From contig LADO01000043.1 in the NCBI GenBank assembly GCA_000961595.1, positions 1 to 40,501 of the forward strand: DNA of 40,501 bases, read 5' to 3'. Shown here one piece after another: positions 11,830 through 29,429 of this stretch. Below the pieces are notes generated by a model. That model was not told where the DNA came from, ran no database searches, and saw only the letters and a program-made list of their open reading frames with translations. Origin of the DNA: Peptococcaceae bacterium BRH_c4b. GTDB lineage: Bacteria; Bacillota; Desulfotomaculia; Desulfotomaculales; Desulfocucumaceae. The position numbers and the translations under genes were made by a program. Numbering within the stretch: the first letter of the stretch is position 1; every line of letters starts with the position of its first letter.

Positions 11830-12042
11830 TTATTTTCTCAGAGTGAGGACAAATTCATTGCCCTCCGCCGCAACCTCAACTCTCCATCCCTTATTCTCGG
11901 CCAGGCGGGTAACATTTTCCCTGGCCGCATTATTATCCACAACCACCCTGACAATACCGCTCTGCATACTATCTATTGCCTTTTTAGTCAACAGAACCGG
12001 CTCCGGGCAAAGCAGCCCCCGGGCATCAACCGTTTTGTCCAA
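11830..12042 (-). CDS. TusA/SirA-family sulfur carrier
   Basis: A 70-residue TusA-like protein with the hallmark CPEP motif (LCPEPVLLTKKAI), whose cysteine can carry persulfide (or selenium) sulfur. The start is TTG at 12042, set by GGGAGGTG six bases upstream. The ORF overlaps the end of the transporter gene by 17 bases, indicating translational coupling. YedE-TusA (YedF-like) pairs are widespread in selenium-using and sulfur-trafficking bacteria. The likely role is passing S or Se from the transporter to cytoplasmic enzymes (inferred). Confidence 0.88.
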   Translation of the reverse strand: MDKTVDARGLLCPEPVLLTKKAIDSMQSGIVRVVVDNNAARENVTRLAENKGWRVEVAAEGNEFVLTLRK

Positions 12043-13114
12043 GGTTTACACCTCCCGAAGCGGTGCTTGTTCGGTAAGCACCCACAAATCCAACTATAAG
12101 TACCAATACAATACCAATGATGGTAGCCGCCTGACCCGCCACAGAAACCCCCTTGGGACTGGCAGCCAAACCGAAATTATGGGCAAAGGCTGCACCGGCT
12201 ATAAAGCCAATAATTGTAATGGCGCAATCCGTGTTCCCCTCACTGGCGGCTATAATTTGCCTTAAGGGACACCCCCCCAGCATGGTTGCCGCCGTGCCTG
12301 CCAGCGCCATGCCGAGAAAATTCCAGACACCGTCTGTGTGAGCAATAGGCTGACCGGCAAAACCAAGTTTAAAAGCTCCCACGGCCAGATTTCCCGCCAA
12401 CGCGAATATTAAAAGAGCAAAGAAGCCTAGCAAAAGATGCGTATCCTTAAATAGAATAAAATCCCTTATGCCACCAATCATGCAAAAACGGGAGCGCTGG
12501 GCTAAAACTCCCACAACAAGTCCCGCTACTAACGAAATAATAACCGGGGCGTGCATGGAACCGGGTCCTGCTTTACTGGTAAAAAAGACGGCGGCACCCG
12601 AAAGAATGATAAACGAGAATATAATTGCTGTTAAAGGAAATATGTACCCGTTTACAACACTCTGGCTGGTTGCCCGCCCCAGGGAAAAACCCCTGTTTAA
12701 GAGCTGGATACCGATAAAAACGCCTGCGATTAAACCCAGTATTCCAACCCCTGCATTCAGGTCCCCGCCAGCCAGACGTAGCACCGCCCGGACAGGACAG
12801 CCCAGGAATACAAGCATGCCGATCATACCTGTGAACGCCAGGAAAAACCTTGTCAGCGGGCTTGATCCGCCCACGGACTTATGTTCCCTGGTCACCAGCG
12901 CCGCTACAAATGCGCCCGCGATAAGGCCGAATATCTCCGGACGCATGTATTGCACCACATCAGCCCTGTGGTAGCCCAGCCCTCCTGCTATGTCCCTTAA
13001 AAAACAGGCTATGCAATAGCCCATATTGGCCGGGTTTCCCACTTTGACAAGATATACGGACAGTAGCCCCAAAACACCTCCCGTTGCTATGACCATGATC
13101 TTTTTTTTATTCAT
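12026..13114 (-). CDS. yedE: YeeE/YedE-family transporter, selenium-type
   Basis: A 362-residue integral membrane protein with about ten hydrophobic helices in two pseudo-repeats. The repeats carry the conserved cysteine/glycine motifs of the YeeE/YedE family: IACFLRDIAGGLG, FLGCPVRAVLRL, RSRFCMIGGIRD and MLGGCPLRQIIAASEGNTD. The family moves thiosulfate-like or selenium species. The longer YedE form tracks with selenium use, which fits the Sec formate dehydrogenase in this window. The ribosome site AAGGAGG is 8 bases before the ATG. Its start codon lies only 22 bases after the 3' end of an unusual tRNA gene on the same strand, with no terminator between them. Confidence 0.85.
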   Translation of the reverse strand: MNKKKIMVIATGGVLGLLSVYLVKVGNPANMGYCIACFLRDIAGGLGYHRADVVQYMRPEIFGLIAGAFVAALVTREHKSVGGSSPLTRFFLAFTGMIGMLVFLGCPVRAVLRLAGGDLNAGVGILGLIAGVFIGIQLLNRGFSLGRATSQSVVNGYIFPLTAIIFSFIILSGAAVFFTSKAGPGSMHAPVIISLVAGLVVGVLAQRSRFCMIGGIRDFILFKDTHLLLGFFALLIFALAGNLAVGAFKLGFAGQPIAHTDGVWNFLGMALAGTAATMLGGCPLRQIIAASEGNTDCAITIIGFIAGAAFAHNFGLAASPKGVSVAGQAATIIGIVLVLIVGFVGAYRTSTASGGVNLGQNG

Positions 13115-13136: not shown

Positions 13137-13232
13137 TGGAAGGGAGAAGTCGGAATCGAACCGGACCCCCACCGGTATTTACGGCAGGCCAACGGGTTTG
13201 CAGCCCGTGGGAGGACCATCCCCTTTCTCCCC
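13137..13232 (-). tRNA. Sec-like class II tRNA with GCA (Cys) anticodon and encoded CCA
   Basis: The 96-nt RNA on the minus strand folds as follows. The acceptor stem is 8 bp (GGGGAGAA with UUCUCCCU, first pair G-U), followed by U73 and an encoded CCA. The D-stem is GGGG/UCCC with loop AUGGUCC. The anticodon stem is ACGGG/CCCGU with loop CUGCAAA, so the anticodon is GCA (13199-13201). The variable arm is long, with a 7-bp stem (CCUGCCG with CCGGUGG). The T-arm has loop UUCGAUU and stem GU(C)CGG/CCGAC with one bulged C. Position 8 is not U. The long variable arm and 8-bp acceptor recall tRNA-Sec, while the GCA anticodon and U73 are cysteine identity elements. It matches the described class of minor Cys tRNAs with a modified 8/4 structure and one bulge. 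It heads the yedE-tusA unit. Confidence 0.88.
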
Positions 13233-13442
13233 TGAAATATAATACAACAGATAGATACACATATAAATATCTTATTGGTTCTATTTAATAATTTTATTTA
13301 TACTGCGTTCAGAATAAGAAAAGTTGATTATTGATACATGATTAACAAAGGCCCGGCGCATACAGCACCGGGCCTCCAGACCTCAATAATTCTGCTTCAT
13401 ACAAACCTCCACGGAGCATAATTCATTGTTGCATCAAATCGT
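13233..13442. other. Intergenic region upstream of the tRNA
   Basis: AT-rich sequence that should hold the tRNA promoter on the minus strand. A TATTAT-like -10 lies near 13240, but I cannot fix a -35. GCCCGGCGCATACAGCACCGGGC (13351-13373) is an inverted repeat downstream of the next minus-strand gene, possibly part of its terminator. Confidence 0.35.
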
Positions 13443-14029: not shown

Positions 14030-14048
14030 CTAAAGCCAAAGTCACATT

Positions 14049-14144
14049 ATCTCCTTTCCGCAACGGGAGGCATGCCGGTTTCCCAGTATACCCTATCGGC
14101 CCGTATGCCGGTACTGTTCAGCTTAGGCAAACGGGCTCGGAGAT
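14049..14144 (-). promoter_or_regulatory. Moco riboswitch 1 (Moco_RNA_motif)
   Basis: Read on the minus strand, the element opens with ATCTCCGAGCC and closes with GGAAAGGAGAT, so ATCTCC and GGAGAT form P1. P2 is GCCCGT/ACGGGC with an inner TGCC/GGCA. A GAAA-capped hairpin (CTGGGAAACCGG) comes next, followed by the conserved GCCTCCCG. The same skeleton, with compensatory changes in P1 and P2, is found at 26439-26534. The motif senses molybdenum cofactor. A GAAA-loop hairpin favours the Moco over the Tuco form. Confidence 0.82.
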
Positions 14145-14158
14145 TTTATTCAGTTACA

Positions 14159-15697: not shown

Positions 15698-16819
15698 TTA
15701 AAACTTGCTGACCATCTGACTGAAATAGCGGCAGTTCTCAATCAAATCAGTACCATGCTTGAACAAACCACCACCAACCAGAAAAACGACTTCTTTCCCG
15801 TACACTTCCAATAGTTCCTCAATACGGTCAAGGCTTATGCCTCCGCCGGGACTGGGAAAGATTTTCTTTATCCGGTCCATATCTACACTAGTTCCCCTGG
15901 CAATTGCTTCACATTCCACCCGGCTAAAGGAGAACCTCCCGCCGAAATTGGGATATATCACTGCGTCCGCGCCGGCTAAGCGGGTAATTTGCCCAAACAG
16001 GGCAAAATGCGAAATGCCGTTGTCTTGAGATGTTACGTAGCTTCCTTGAAAAGCTGGATGACTGAAGATCGGCAGGGCAAGTTGGTCATCATTAGCCAAA
16101 ATCCTCATTATATCCATCCCGGTAATGGCCGGCGATACTATCAGGCCTTTTGCTCCCAGTTCTTTGGCGGTTTTAGCGCGCATCAAAATCTTGTCCGCCG
16201 GTGCGGTTATATTAGGGATATAAATGCACCGCCGCCCCGTTTTACTGTTGGCTTTTTCTACTGCTTCTACACAACGGTATACTCTCTCATCAAAGGAAGC
16301 AAAGATTTGATCGGTAAGTCCGTGATCATCCTTGATCATATCGATGCCGCCTAATGCGCATTTATAGGCCATATCCGCCAACTGACCCGGATTAAGTCCC
16401 ATTGGCTTTAGTGCAGTGAATAAAAGCGGGCGGTTCTTGACGCCAAGAAACTCCCGGAGACCCTCACGGCCGAAGCGTGGCCCCCGGTATTGGCACAGCA
16501 GCGAATCGGGCATCTCCAGCCGCTCCACCCTGTATCCCGGCTTAATACTGATATTACCGAAAACAACATTTAGAAGTTGAGTAAATTCATTAGCTGTCGT
16601 CTCCACTGCATAACTAATGGTAGCTTCATAAGCGCATTCACTGACCGGCTTGAAATCCTCGATCCGCCCTACAATTTCATCCCGGATCATCCCGGCCGGG
16701 ACAAGCTCTTCTGGAAATTCCACTGTCTGCTCCAGACAAATATCCCATGCTTTACGATGCGCTTCCTTTTCATCTCCTAATAAGCGGTATACTACAGAAA
16801 AGCGTTCTCCTGAGATCAT
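15698..16819 (-). CDS. RuBisCO-like protein (form IV)
   Basis: A 373-residue protein of the RuBisCO large-subunit superfamily, with an N-terminal alpha/beta domain and a TIM barrel. K138 in FTALKPMGLNPG matches the catalytic K175, although the K177 position is M140. The metal-site segment is K163-D-D-H166, so the ligand E204 of true RuBisCO is histidine. Loop 6 reads YPNFGGRFSFS without the catalytic lysine. PSPGGGI and VGGGL keep the phosphate-binding loops. It is therefore not a carboxylase. RuBisCO-like proteins act as enolases, isomerases or decarboxylases on sugar phosphates. The ATG overlaps the stop of the transketolase C gene (TAATG), so the three genes are coupled and probably share a pathway. 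Confidence 0.9.
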   Translation of the reverse strand: MISGERFSVVYRLLGDEKEAHRKAWDICLEQTVEFPEELVPAGMIRDEIVGRIEDFKPVSECAYEATISYAVETTANEFTQLLNVVFGNISIKPGYRVERLEMPDSLLCQYRGPRFGREGLREFLGVKNRPLLFTALKPMGLNPGQLADMAYKCALGGIDMIKDDHGLTDQIFASFDERVYRCVEAVEKANSKTGRRCIYIPNITAPADKILMRAKTAKELGAKGLIVSPAITGMDIMRILANDDQLALPIFSHPAFQGSYVTSQDNGISHFALFGQITRLAGADAVIYPNFGGRFSFSRVECEAIARGTSVDMDRIKKIFPSPGGGISLDRIEELLEVYGKEVVFLVGGGLFKHGTDLIENCRYFSQMVSKF

Positions 16820-17826
16820 TATAACGCCTCCGCCTTGGCATCACTGTGTACTGGCGCAATATATACCTGTGCCAAATCATCTTCAGATATATCGAAATGA
16901 TGGTCTGTCAACTTGCTTACCTCTTCAATAAGCGCCATCGCATCCAACCGGTACTTGCGCATCAAATAGGAACGGCTGGCGCCATGCAGGAAGGTATCCT
17001 TCAGACCAATACGGACAAGCTTTTTGCCCAGGCCGGACTCTGCTATTTGTTCAGCGATAATAGTGCCTAATCCGCCGCTAACGGAATGGTTTTCCATGGT
17101 AATAGCACCATAACGTGAATTAGCGATGGACTCCAGCACCTCAGGATTATGAAAAGGTTTTAGTGTTGTGACATGCATATGTTGTATCGACAGTCCACGC
17201 CTGTGCAGCGCCTGTATAGCCCGCATCGCCTCTTCGGTGCATATGCCGGTCGTTAATACCGTAATATCGCTTCCCCTGCTGATCGTCCTCGCTTTATTGA
17301 AACGCATCGGGTCCTGGGGTGAAAACAAGCGCGGAATTTCTCCCCGCAGCATACGCACATAAACCGGTCCGTCAACCTGATGCGCTACATCCAGTACACT
17401 TTCCACATCCGTGGCATCGCCGCATTCCAGTATGGTCATGTTCGGCAAAGAACGCATCACGGAGATATCCTCGATGGCCTGATGTGTTGCACCTCCGGGG
17501 GTCGTTACGCCGGGAAGAAAACCAATCATGCGTACTGGTAAGTTTGGATAAGCCACAGAAATAGCAATTTGATCGTAAGCCCTTCGATAGATGAAAACAG
17601 CAAATGTATGAATGAATGGGTAGAGCCCCTCCCGGGCCATCCCACCGGCAAAACTAAGCATGTTTTGTTCTGCTATACCCATGGATAAAAACCGTTCAGG
17701 GTATGCGCTACGAAACAAATCCACTTCCGTTGAACTCGTCAGGTCAGCAGAGAGAACGAAGACCTCCGGCTTATCTTTGGCCCACTCAACTAAATTGCGT
17801 GCGTGAACTTTTGATAAAATTTCCAT
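16819..17826 (-). CDS. Transketolase C-terminal subunit (split type)
   Basis: A 335-residue protein corresponding to the PYR and C-terminal domains of transketolase. The catalytic glutamate is E53 in FLSMGIAEQNMLSFAGG. Other hallmarks are GVTTPGGATHQAIEDISVMR and VTTLKPF, with a C-terminal ENHSVSGGLG. It pairs with the adjacent N-terminal subunit to make a ThDP-dependent two-carbon transferase. A ribosome site AAGGG is 9 bases before the ATG. Split transketolases include the apulose-4-phosphate enzyme (AptAB) of apiose breakdown. The fused housekeeping form is not in this window. Coupling to the RuBisCO-like gene suggests a special sugar route (inferred). Confidence 0.9.
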   Translation of the reverse strand: MEILSKVHARNLVEWAKDKPEVFVLSADLTSSTEVDLFRSAYPERFLSMGIAEQNMLSFAGGMAREGLYPFIHTFAVFIYRRAYDQIAISVAYPNLPVRMIGFLPGVTTPGGATHQAIEDISVMRSLPNMTILECGDATDVESVLDVAHQVDGPVYVRMLRGEIPRLFSPQDPMRFNKARTISRGSDITVLTTGICTEEAMRAIQALHRRGLSIQHMHVTTLKPFHNPEVLESIANSRYGAITMENHSVSGGLGTIIAEQIAESGLGKKLVRIGLKDTFLHGASRSYLMRKYRLDAMALIEEVSKLTDHHFDISEDDLAQVYIAPVHSDAKAEAL

Positions 17827-17849
17827 TCGTATCGACCCTTCTTAAATAA

Positions 17850-18764
17850 CTACATATTTTTTAGAATCCCGGCATATCGTGCACGATCTTCCTCCGTAGC
17901 AAAACGTACGTAATGCAACTTCGGATAGCGCTCTTTTAAAATGTCGATCCCTTTCCAGGGAATGGTATCTGCTAAAACGATCCGTGGTTTCCCTTTAGCG
18001 GTAGACCCCAATGCGGGCTGAACCAGCATGTCCAAATCATGGCCATCCACTCTATCTACCTTGGCGCCAAAAGCTGTTAACCGATCCGCAAAAGGTTCTA
18101 TCTCCATGACATCACATACGGCTCCGTCACACTGCTGCCCGTTAACATCAACATAAATTCCTATATTATCCAGCTTATGATAGGAGATGGCCTGGAGGGC
18201 TTCCCAATTTTGGCCGGACTGCCACTCACCGTCTGACATGAAAACCCATACCTTGCCCAGGTCTCCATGCAACTTGCGGGCAAAAGCAATACCCGCCGCC
18301 TGGCTCAGACCCTGCCCCAGAGACCCTGTCATAACCTCCATACCTGGCGAGTGTTCCGCCCCGATCATTTCCACAGTATAGCCATCCACATTAAACTGCC
18401 GCAGACCTTCCGGATCCATCCTCCCCACTTCAATTAGCAGCGCGTACAATACCAGCGCATATTGGGACGGTGACAGTATGAACCGGTCATAGCCCGCCCC
18501 TTTTGGACCATTAAACCTGGCGCCCGTAAAAACGCTGGGATTATCCGGACCAGGCACACCAGCAAAGGGCTGGGGCAGAAGAGGATTTTCCGTTGCTCCC
18601 AGGTTCATAACGCGTATATACATTATGGCCAGGATCTCAGCTGAAGAACAAGCCTGGCTCAAATATCCACCATTGTTATTGACTGTATGCTCCAGTACAC
18701 GACGACGAACGCCATGGGCAACCCGCTGCACTTCTTCCTGCCACTTCGCTTGCAAATCTAACAT
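17850..18764 (-). CDS. Transketolase N-terminal subunit (split type)
   Basis: The start is ATG 18764, set by AAGGAGTT eight bases upstream. An ATG at 18800 lacks a ribosome site. The 304 residues form the ThDP-binding PP domain, with EHSPGMEVMTGSLGQGLSQA, the cofactor motif SDGEWQSGQNWEA and the asparagine in VDVNGQQCDG. AKGKPRIVLADTIPWKG near the end is typical of the N-subunit. The long loop at about residues 60-95 (PLLPQPFAGVPGPDNPSVFT) is not usual in housekeeping transketolases and may reflect substrate choice. It is the first gene of the three-gene minus-strand operon. Confidence 0.9.
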   Translation of the reverse strand: MLDLQAKWQEEVQRVAHGVRRRVLEHTVNNNGGYLSQACSSAEILAIMYIRVMNLGATENPLLPQPFAGVPGPDNPSVFTGARFNGPKGAGYDRFILSPSQYALVLYALLIEVGRMDPEGLRQFNVDGYTVEMIGAEHSPGMEVMTGSLGQGLSQAAGIAFARKLHGDLGKVWVFMSDGEWQSGQNWEALQAISYHKLDNIGIYVDVNGQQCDGAVCDVMEIEPFADRLTAFGAKVDRVDGHDLDMLVQPALGSTAKGKPRIVLADTIPWKGIDILKERYPKLHYVRFATEEDRARYAGILKNM

Positions 18765-19042
18765 ATTAGTCCAACTCCTTAAAGGTTTTACGCTCAACAA
18801 CCTCCTAGATTATTCTACTGTGAATGGATAATACCTTCACTTAATGCTAAAAAGCCAGGAACACCTTGCCGCGCTCGAACTGGGATATATTTCCATCATA
18901 CGGGCTTATTAAACAACCGTTGGAAATTTTGTTTATTCAGGAAAAATAATTCAATAAATAAAAAGATTTCTATTTATACGTGTCGAATTAAACTTAAAAA
19001 CAATTTCTATTCATTACCAACTTATTTAATTGGAGGGATTAC

Positions 19043-26396: not shown

Positions 26397-26438
26397 TATC
26401 ACGATAGTATGCTTTTTCACAGCAACTGAATAATGTGA

Positions 26439-26534
26439 GCTCCGAGCTTTTCTGCCCTAAAACCGTTTGGTCATGGCAAAAAGCCGTTAGGGTAAATCTG
26501 GAAACGGATTTGCCTCCCGTGGTTGAAAAGGAGC
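26439..26534 (+). promoter_or_regulatory. Moco riboswitch 2 upstream of fdhA
   Basis: P1 is GCTCC/GGAGC, opening as GCTCCGAGC and closing as GAAAAGGAGC. P2 is GCTTTT/AAAAGC with inner TGCC/GGCA, then CGTTAGGGTA, a GAAA-type hairpin (TCTGGAAACGGA) and GCCTCCCG. Compared with the element at 14049-14144, the P1 and P2 base pairs change on both sides while the single-stranded boxes stay fixed. A terminator follows at 26610. Cofactor level probably decides whether the fdh operon is transcribed. Confidence 0.9.
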
Positions 26535-26609
26535 GCGGAACCAGCTTTTAACAAGGCCTGATAATTATAAGGTCCTGTTTTTGGTGTTTATTTCAGGTTC
26601 CCCGTATTT

Positions 26610-26638: not shown

Positions 26639-26753
26639 CATTCGACTTTCCGGCCGCAATGATTACCGGTAATGCAATTTTTTAGTTAATTACCTGATAA
26701 TTAAGATTCCCGTATAAGTTACTCTCATTATTACATTACAAGGAGTGAATGAA

Positions 26754-29429
26754 GTGGAAACGGTTAAACTCACCATTAACGGCATGGCTGTGGAAGTGCC
26801 GGCGGGAACCACCGTTCTCAATGCCGCGGAGCAGGCGGGGATAAACATCCCAAGGCTCTGCCACGAGCCGGACTTAAGCCCCTTGGGGGCCTGCCGGCTG
26901 TGCGTAGTGGAAATTGAAGGCATGCGCAACCTGCCCGCCTCCTGCGTCACCGCCGTATCACCGAACATGTTGGTACATACCCATTCCCCGGCGGTGGTGG
27001 AAGCCAGGCAGACCATACTGGAACTGCTGCTGGCCAATCACCCCCAGGACTGCCTCACCTGTGAAAAAATGGGCAACTGCAAACTGGCCTCATACTGCTA
27101 CGAATACGGTGTAAAGCAGAGCGCTTTCCCGGGGGACAGGCACAATTACCCGGTGGAAGACAGCAATCCATTTATCGTCCGGGACATGAACAAATGCATT
27201 CTGTGCGGTAAATGTGTGCGGGCCTGCGCCGAAATCACCGGCAAAAACAATCTGGACTACGCCTACCGCGGTTTCAACAGTAAAGTGACTACTTTCTACG
27301 ATGTGCCCTTTGTAGAGTCGGACTGTGTGTTCTGCGGCAACTGCGTTTCCGTCTGCCCCACCGGGGCGCTGACGGAAAAACGCATCCAGGGCAAGGCCCG
27401 CCACTTTGAGTTCACAAAAGTAAAAACCACCTGCCCGTTCTGCGGCACCGGCTGCAATTTCGACCTCAACGTCAAGGATGGGAAAGTGATGGCCGTTACT
27501 ACGGGGCCGGACAACGCCGTTAACGGGCGCGCCCTCTGCATCAAGGGCCGCTTCGGCTGGGATTTCATATACAGCGACCGGCGGCTGACCACTCCTCTTA
27601 TAAAAAGGGGCGATGGATTTGTCCAGGCCTCCTGGGACGAGGCCCTGGACCTGATCGCCACCCGCCTGCAGGGAATAAAGGATAAGTACGGCGGTGATTC
27701 CTTCGCTGCTTTGAGTTCGGCCAGGTGCACCAATGAGGAAAACTATCTACTGCAAAAATTTACAAAGGTGGTGATGGGCACAAACAACGTTGATCACTGT
27801 GCCCGTACCTGACACGCTCCCACAGTAGCCGGTCTGGCTACTTCCTTCGGGAGCGGCGCAATGACCAATTCCATAGGGGAAATCGACCATGCAGAATTGC
27901 TGCTTTTAGTCGGCACCAACACCACGGAGGCCCACCCTATTGTAGGCTATAAAATGAGACAAGCAGCACGCAAGGGGGCTAAATTGATTGTAGTGGACCC
28001 CAGGCGTATTGAGCTGGCGGAAGAAGCTGATTACTGGCTGCGCATCCAGCCCGGCACCGACATACCCCTGCTTAACGGCCTGATGCATATAATTATCAAA
28101 GAAAACCTGCAGAATAGCACATTTATAGAAGAAAGAACCGAAAATTATGCGGCTCTGAAAGAAACGGTGGAGAAATACACCCCGGACTACGTATCCCGCC
28201 TCACCGGGGTGCCGGAAGAAAATCTTTATGCAGTAGCCCGGCTTTACGCCACCACGGACAAAGCCATGACATTCTACACCCTGGGCATAACGGAACACGT
28301 ATGCGGGACTAATAACGTTATGAGCGTAGCCAACCTCGCCATGCTCACCGGGCACCTGGGACGCCCCGGCACCGGCGTAAACCCCATCCGGGGCCAGAAC
28401 AACGTGCAGGGAGCCTGCGACATGGGAGCACTGCCCAACGTCTTTCCCGGCTACCAAAGGGTCATTGACCCCACCGCCAGAGAAAAGTTTGAAAAGGCCT
28501 GGGGTGCTTCTCTTTCAGGGGATATGGGCCTGATGATACCTGAAATGTTTGACAAAGCACATGCAGGTGACCTTAAGGCCATGTACATCCTGGGCGAAAA
28601 CCCGGTGCTCACGGACCCCAACAGCAACCACATCCGCTCCGGACTGGACAAACTGGAGTTCTTAGTGGTCCAGGAACTATTCCTGACAGAAACGGCAGAA
28701 TACGCCGATGTGATACTCCCGGCGGCCAGCTTCGCGGAAACAGACGGCACCTTCACCAACACCGAACGCCGGGTACAGCGGGTGCGCAAGGCCATTGAGC
28801 CCCTGCCGGGACTGGCCAACTGGCAGGCCATCATGGACTTAAGCACAAAAATGGGTTATCCCATGAACTACCGGAATCCGGAAGAAATATTCGCGGAAAT
28901 GGCCTCCCTGACACCGTCCTACGCCGGCATCAGCTATGCCAGGCTGGAAAACAGCAGCATCCAGTGGCCCTGCCCCACCAGCAACCACCCGGGCACGCCA
29001 TTCCTGCACGCCCAGGCGTTCACCAGGGGCAAGGGACTGTTCCAGGCCATCGAGCACATACCCCCGGCGGAAATGCCGGATCAGGAATATCCTTTCCTGC
29101 TGTCCACCGGCAGGATACTATATCACTATAATGTCACCACACCGTATTCCGCCGCCATCCAGAGCATGTGGTCGGAAGAATACGCCGAGGTCAATCCCGA
29201 GGATGCCGCCCGGCTGGGCGTGGATTACGGGGACCAGGTGAAAGTATACTCGAGAAGAGGCGAACTGTTGACCAAAATTCAGGTCACAGACCGGGTGCCC
29301 CCGGGAGTTATATGGATGTCCTTCCACTACAAGGACAGCCCCACCAACGCCATAACCAGTGATGCCATTGATCCCATCACCAAAACCGGCGAATACAAGG
29401 TCTGCGCTGTAAAGGTTGAAAAAATATAG
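26754..29429 (+). CDS. fdhA: Selenocysteine-containing formate dehydrogenase, alpha subunit
   Basis: One gene is read through an in-frame UGA (27810-27812, codon 353) as selenocysteine, giving 891 residues. The start GTG 26754 has AAGGAG eight bases upstream, whereas GTG 26745 overlaps that site. In order the protein has an NuoG-like [2Fe-2S] domain (CHEPDLSPLGACRLC), a His-Cys cluster (HPQDCLTCEKMGNC) and two 4Fe-4S sites (CILCGKCVRAC, CVFCGNCVSVCP). The catalytic domain follows with CPFCGTGC and NVDHCART-U-HAPTVAG, then the molybdopterin dinucleotide-binding end. Length and layout match acetogen-type NAD(P)-linked FdhA (W/Se). It interconverts formate and CO2 in the cytoplasm. A beta subunit is not adjacent. 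Confidence 0.95.
27810..27854 (+). promoter_or_regulatory. Selenocysteine codon with SECIS element
   Basis: UGA at 27810-27812 is followed by a hairpin with outer stem GCTCCC/GGGAGC (27816-27821 and 27849-27854). The inner stem is GTAGCC/GGCTAC and the apical loop GGTCT, the loop sequence recognised by SelB in the E. coli fdhF SECIS. Confidence 0.93.

Follow-up and report, generated by a model that had tools for sequence, protein, structure and literature searches.

The window, by which we mean the whole 40,501-nt stretch of DNA analysed here, contains a single tRNA called by ARAGORN, a tRNA-Cys(GCA) that precedes a yedE gene and a tusA-like gene on the minus strand (Table 1). No terminator was found in the 22 nt that separate the tRNA from the yedE start codon (ATG at 13114). 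In most relatives this spacing amounts to 19–92 nt, and relatives within the family carry an AT-rich −10-like element at the matching place before the tRNA. The short, terminator-free gap, the promoter-like site upstream and the short gaps in relatives together make it very probable that the tRNA leads a common transcript with yedE-tusA, in line with the co-transcription proposed in a preliminary description of the locus.

Table 1. Coordinates of the features discussed, numbered along the window.
Feature	Position	Strand	Details
selC*-type tRNA-Cys(GCA)	13137..13232	−	acceptor-T branch 8/5, with a C bulged out of the T-stem; extended variable arm; U73; CCA present in the gene
Promoter-like TTTATA-17-TATTAT	13239..13267	−	ends 6 nt before the tRNA
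Putative two-box LysR-type operator	13257..13298	−	ATAAAATTATTAAAT (13283-13297) and ATAAGATATTTATAT (13261-13275), each T-N11-A
yedE, putative selenium transporter	12026..13114	−	selenium-linked family TIGR04112, 485 bits
tusA-like sulfurtransferase, 70 aa	11830..12042	−	overlaps the end of yedE
Formate dehydrogenase alpha selenoprotein	26745..29429	+	in-frame TGA 27810-27812 (U356), possible target codon

The anatomy of the RNA was deduced from a covariance model of 24 homologues and from 81 fetched copies. The acceptor stem measures 8 bp in 77 distinct homologues, with covariation at the eighth pair (AU in 64, GC in 6, UA in 5), and the 7-bp variable arm covaries as well. In the window tRNA, which has an A in place of U8, the T-stem comprises 5 bp and a single bulged C, giving an 8/5 branch with a bulge. 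This bulge differs in base and place among families, and several copies of family f6 form a plain 8/5 branch without it. Single-sequence folding energy was no better than that of shuffled sequences (z −0.1) and thus uninformative, so that the support for the tRNA structure is comparative. U73 and a GCA anticodon are identity features of Cys tRNAs. The ARAGORN call, the covariation, the variable arm and the missing U8 bear out the tRNA-Sec-like architecture with GCA, U73 and one bulged T-stem nucleotide that had been read from the sequence beforehand. Its comparison with tRNA-Sec held in part: modelling confirmed the 8-bp acceptor stem and the variable arm, but the Rfam tRNA-Sec model (RF01852) assigned the RNA 42.1 bits (E 2e-7), below its gathering score of 47 bits. 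The RNA further departs from tRNA-Sec in carrying GCA instead of UCA and U73 instead of G73, and its bulge and D-arm are unlike those of the host tRNA-Sec.

With its 8-bp acceptor stem, U73 and GCA, one of the two anticodons (GCA or UCA) expected of the class, and with a canonical tRNA-Sec and SelB encoded in the same genome, the RNA is, by sequence, a tRNA-Sec-like tRNA-Cys that belongs to the published selC* tRNA-Cys class (Mukai et al. 2017, summarized in PMC7609411), the class from tRNA-Sec surveys to which the preliminary description had likened it. According to that description, the class shares with the window tRNA the 8-bp acceptor, the long variable arm, a bulged T-stem, U73 and GCA, as well as the occurrence in anaerobic Firmicutes alongside a true tRNA-Sec. 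In contrast to the 4 bp plus bulged A51a given there, the window T-stem forms five pairs and bulges out a C (8/5). Furthermore, the window locus is devoid of selB* and cysS*, the tRNA instead probably heading yedE-tusA under a yedE-type operator; unlike the delta-proteobacterial selC*-selB*-cysS* system, it has neither a second selB nor a truncated cysS next to it. While the tRNA class itself has been published, its context appears to be new, namely the yedE linkage and the putative operator common to selC* and yedE. No mention of a yedE link was found in the literature searched, which left out the two original selC* papers.

A search of 120 relatives with our model R1 at a threshold of 58 bits returned 83 copies, distributed over 75 genomes; matches at 44–56 bits were left out as probable tRNA-Sec. 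Relatives with a matching tRNA 3′ half include Desulforamulus, Desulfoscipio, Desulfotruncus and Desulfallas. As read from the alignment, the anticodon is GCA in 72 of the 81 fetched copies, UCA in seven and ACA in two. As at the window locus, 23 copies from 22 genomes are immediately followed by yedE in the same orientation, these genomes representing six families (f1, f2, f4, f6, f14 and f16), but most copies are found elsewhere, so that yedE linkage as a general rule was rejected. Some copies occur in ordinary tRNA surroundings, some adjoin tRNA-Lys(CUU) and others a double-cubane reductase and its activase. Family f7 copies reside inside the SAO operon, one genome has its copy after selD (SelD being named from sequence, with no profile), and at one locus outside the order (L165, genome G388) the tRNA is placed between yedE and tusA.

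Several related loci stood out. Seven f7 loci (L134, L136, L138, L141, L145, L155 and L139) harbor second tRNA-Sec-like genes with UCA, A73 or G73 and no conserved CCA. Most are flanked by saoC and saoX in the SAO (selenoprotein) operon, and these genomes also encode a canonical tRNA-Sec. Genome G013 carries a GCA/U73 copy at the equivalent position. Two yedE-linked f16 copies (L112:5001-5096 and L119:5001-5097) have ACA anticodons, and the yedE-linked second copies of this family score below their unlinked counterparts in these genomes, a pattern reminiscent of selection that is relaxed or of another kind. At three f14 loci (L124, L132 and L152), the tRNA follows a pair of HdrA-like and MvhD-like genes, which is itself preceded by an operator-like site.

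The upstream regions of tRNA-yedE loci and of yedE genes lacking the tRNA have a motif in common (log-likelihood 222, versus 72–82 in eight shuffles), the full element consisting of two T-N11-A boxes ~22 nt apart. We trained an operator matrix with blind seeding on 30 tRNA-less yedE upstream regions only and counted scores of at least 8 as matches. The window site scored 20.3, the best value in the 40.5-kb window (next separate site, 7.5). Matches preceded 22 of 23 yedE-linked selC* copies (0.14 in dinucleotide shuffles), 27 of 51 unlinked ones (0.48) and 7 of 11 outside the order (0.18), although related copies are not independent and these counts thus overstate the number of events. Upstream of canonical tRNA-Sec genes there were none in 30 (0.03 in shuffles), and only two matches fell upstream of other tRNAs, both where the test stretch extends into a selC* upstream region. 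The shuffles and both sets of control tRNAs led us to reject the idea that the element is a mere AT-rich promoter. In seven f8 genomes, selC* and yedE occupy separate loci (7–18 kb apart in the six with known distances), both equipped with the operator. Matches also precede the SAO, reductase-activase, HdrA-MvhD (both named from sequence) and selD-tRNA gene groups. About half of the unlinked copies show no clear match to the operator model. Conversely, yedE frequently has the operator without the tRNA. The preliminary description had tied the tRNA to selenium and sulfur trafficking through its neighbors, a tie that homologues in other surroundings might loosen. Most copies are indeed not beside yedE, but many retain the operator or sit in other selenium-gene operons, and the occurrence of the yedE operator at unlinked copies makes the selenium link stronger than first stated.

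As to the regulator, a gene for the selenium-linked LysR-type protein LysR_Sec immediately precedes tRNA-yedE in families f2 and f6, and this proximity points to LysR_Sec as probably acting on the putative operator. LysR_Sec is missing from five of 87 near-complete relatives, and these five are devoid of the selC* tRNA as well. The host has one LysR_Sec_metab gene, on another contig, whose stretch yielded a weak operator score of 6.3 only; the upstream regions of host selB, tRNA-Sec and selD contained no site at the threshold used.

Nearly all genomes of the order have SelB, rendering co-occurrence within it uninformative, and we therefore turned to a phylum sample of 398 genomes. SelB was present in all 28 selC* genomes as compared to 263 of 398 overall (hypergeometric 5e-6; by genus, 4e-4), carriers being defined by a copy above 58 bits that was called Cys or clustered with Cys-called copies (one, G159, is without an ARAGORN call). 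Elsewhere, genome G025 (C8:78813-82044) encodes a second full selB adjoining yedE. In addition to the window tRNA, the host possesses a true tRNA-Sec(UCA), a canonical tRNA-Cys, one SelB above the family cut-off on another contig and one full CysRS gene, located elsewhere; a genome search found no dedicated CysRS* or selB*. In-frame TGA codons occur in the host selD gene and in two formate dehydrogenase alpha genes, one of them within the window.

Taken together, we consider it fairly probable that the window tRNA serves as a Cys-for-Sec backup induced along with selenium uptake when selenium is short. The host CysRS would charge it with Cys and SelB, given the tRNA-Sec-like body, would carry it to SECIS-marked UGA codons, at which Cys would be inserted instead of Sec. 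An argument against such reading of UGA is the anticodon, since GCA pairs with UGA only via a third-position mismatch. Expression would be driven from the yedE promoter under the LysR-type operator, probably via LysR_Sec, such that selenium shortage would boost the Cys-substituting tRNA along with uptake (YedE, TusA).

Two precedents with opposite directions are reported in a review (PMC11415595): a Desulfotomaculum nigrificans tRNA-Cys(GCA) of tRNA-Sec-like shape has SelB rather than EF-Tu as its carrier and inserts Cys at Sec UGA codons (ref. 197 therein), while an Aeromonas salmonicida tRNA-Sec with GCA places Sec at Cys codons. By this published description, the window tRNA resembles that of D. 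nigrificans in GCA and in its tRNA-Sec-like structure, and the order is the same, judging by name. The reported UGA reading makes Cys at Sec codons the likely direction and turns against the placement of Sec at Cys codons considered in the preliminary description; nothing points to the sensor role also raised there. In Methanococcus maripaludis, yedE is up by 5.3 log2 on selenium starvation; its deletion had no clear effect, leaving selenium transport by YedE unproven. According to PMC5322559, HrsM of this species, named there as the LysR_Se orthologue, keeps Cys-encoding isogenes repressed under adequate selenium. The parallels comprise a selenium-linked LysR-type regulator, a yedE response to starvation and the replacement of Sec by Cys. 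However, M. maripaludis switches Cys/Sec isogenes, whereas here a recoding tRNA would be the target of a regulation that is predicted only. The selC* class, the D. nigrificans report and the M. maripaludis selenium response jointly support the notion of a Cys-for-Sec backup tRNA induced with uptake.

Three alternatives deserve consideration. That the tRNA is an extra Cys isoacceptor for ordinary UGC/UGU codons, its tRNA-Sec-like shape being a relic, would fit the near-universal retention of GCA and U73, the copies adjoining tRNA-Lys(CUU) and the help from which a single-copy canonical tRNA-Cys might gain; we regard it as unlikely in view of the lack of EF-Tu interaction stated for the D. nigrificans homologue in the review (PMC11415595), the presence of SelB in every carrier of the phylum sample and the operator common to tRNA and yedE. 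Quite improbable is a role of the tRNA in the processing or the leader of the yedE mRNA, with folding, charging or cleavage of the tRNA tuning yedE: the tRNA-yedE spacing is short and conserved, and the yedE-linked second copies of f16 score lower than unlinked ones, two of them with ACA, yet many copies away from yedE retain CCA, GCA, U73 and often the operator, and yedE often has the operator without a tRNA. Most improbable of all is Sec at Cys codons—through SerRS charging and SelA conversion, or CysRS charging with Sec—for which the long variable arm, the 8/5 branch and the Aeromonas precedent speak, but against which stand the Cys identity features U73 and GCA, a bulge and D-arm different from those of the host tRNA-Sec and the existence of a true UCA tRNA-Sec in the host.

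The purpose of tRNA-Sec-like cysteine tRNAs has been described as unsettled. With Cys-for-Sec backup as the preferred reading, an operator common to selC* and yedE, even where the two are far apart, offers a concrete and testable answer, namely a tRNA-level switch between Cys and Sec governed by selenium supply, and it supplies a bacterial selenium regulon with an operator and a candidate for its regulator. More tentatively, and with the odds slightly against it, a selenium-responsive regulon of anaerobic Firmicutes may set how UGA is read: a single LysR-type regulator would turn on yedE-tusA together with a Cys-charged, SelB-borne tRNA, permitting Cys versions of selenoproteins in shortage, and the recoding tRNA would be regulated across many families.

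Elsewhere in the window, Moco riboswitches are found upstream of the formate dehydrogenase selenoprotein (26428-26549, plus strand) and upstream of an unknown 171-aa open reading frame (14035-14154, minus strand), and a RuBisCO-like protein is encoded beside a transketolase split into two genes (15698-18800, minus strand).
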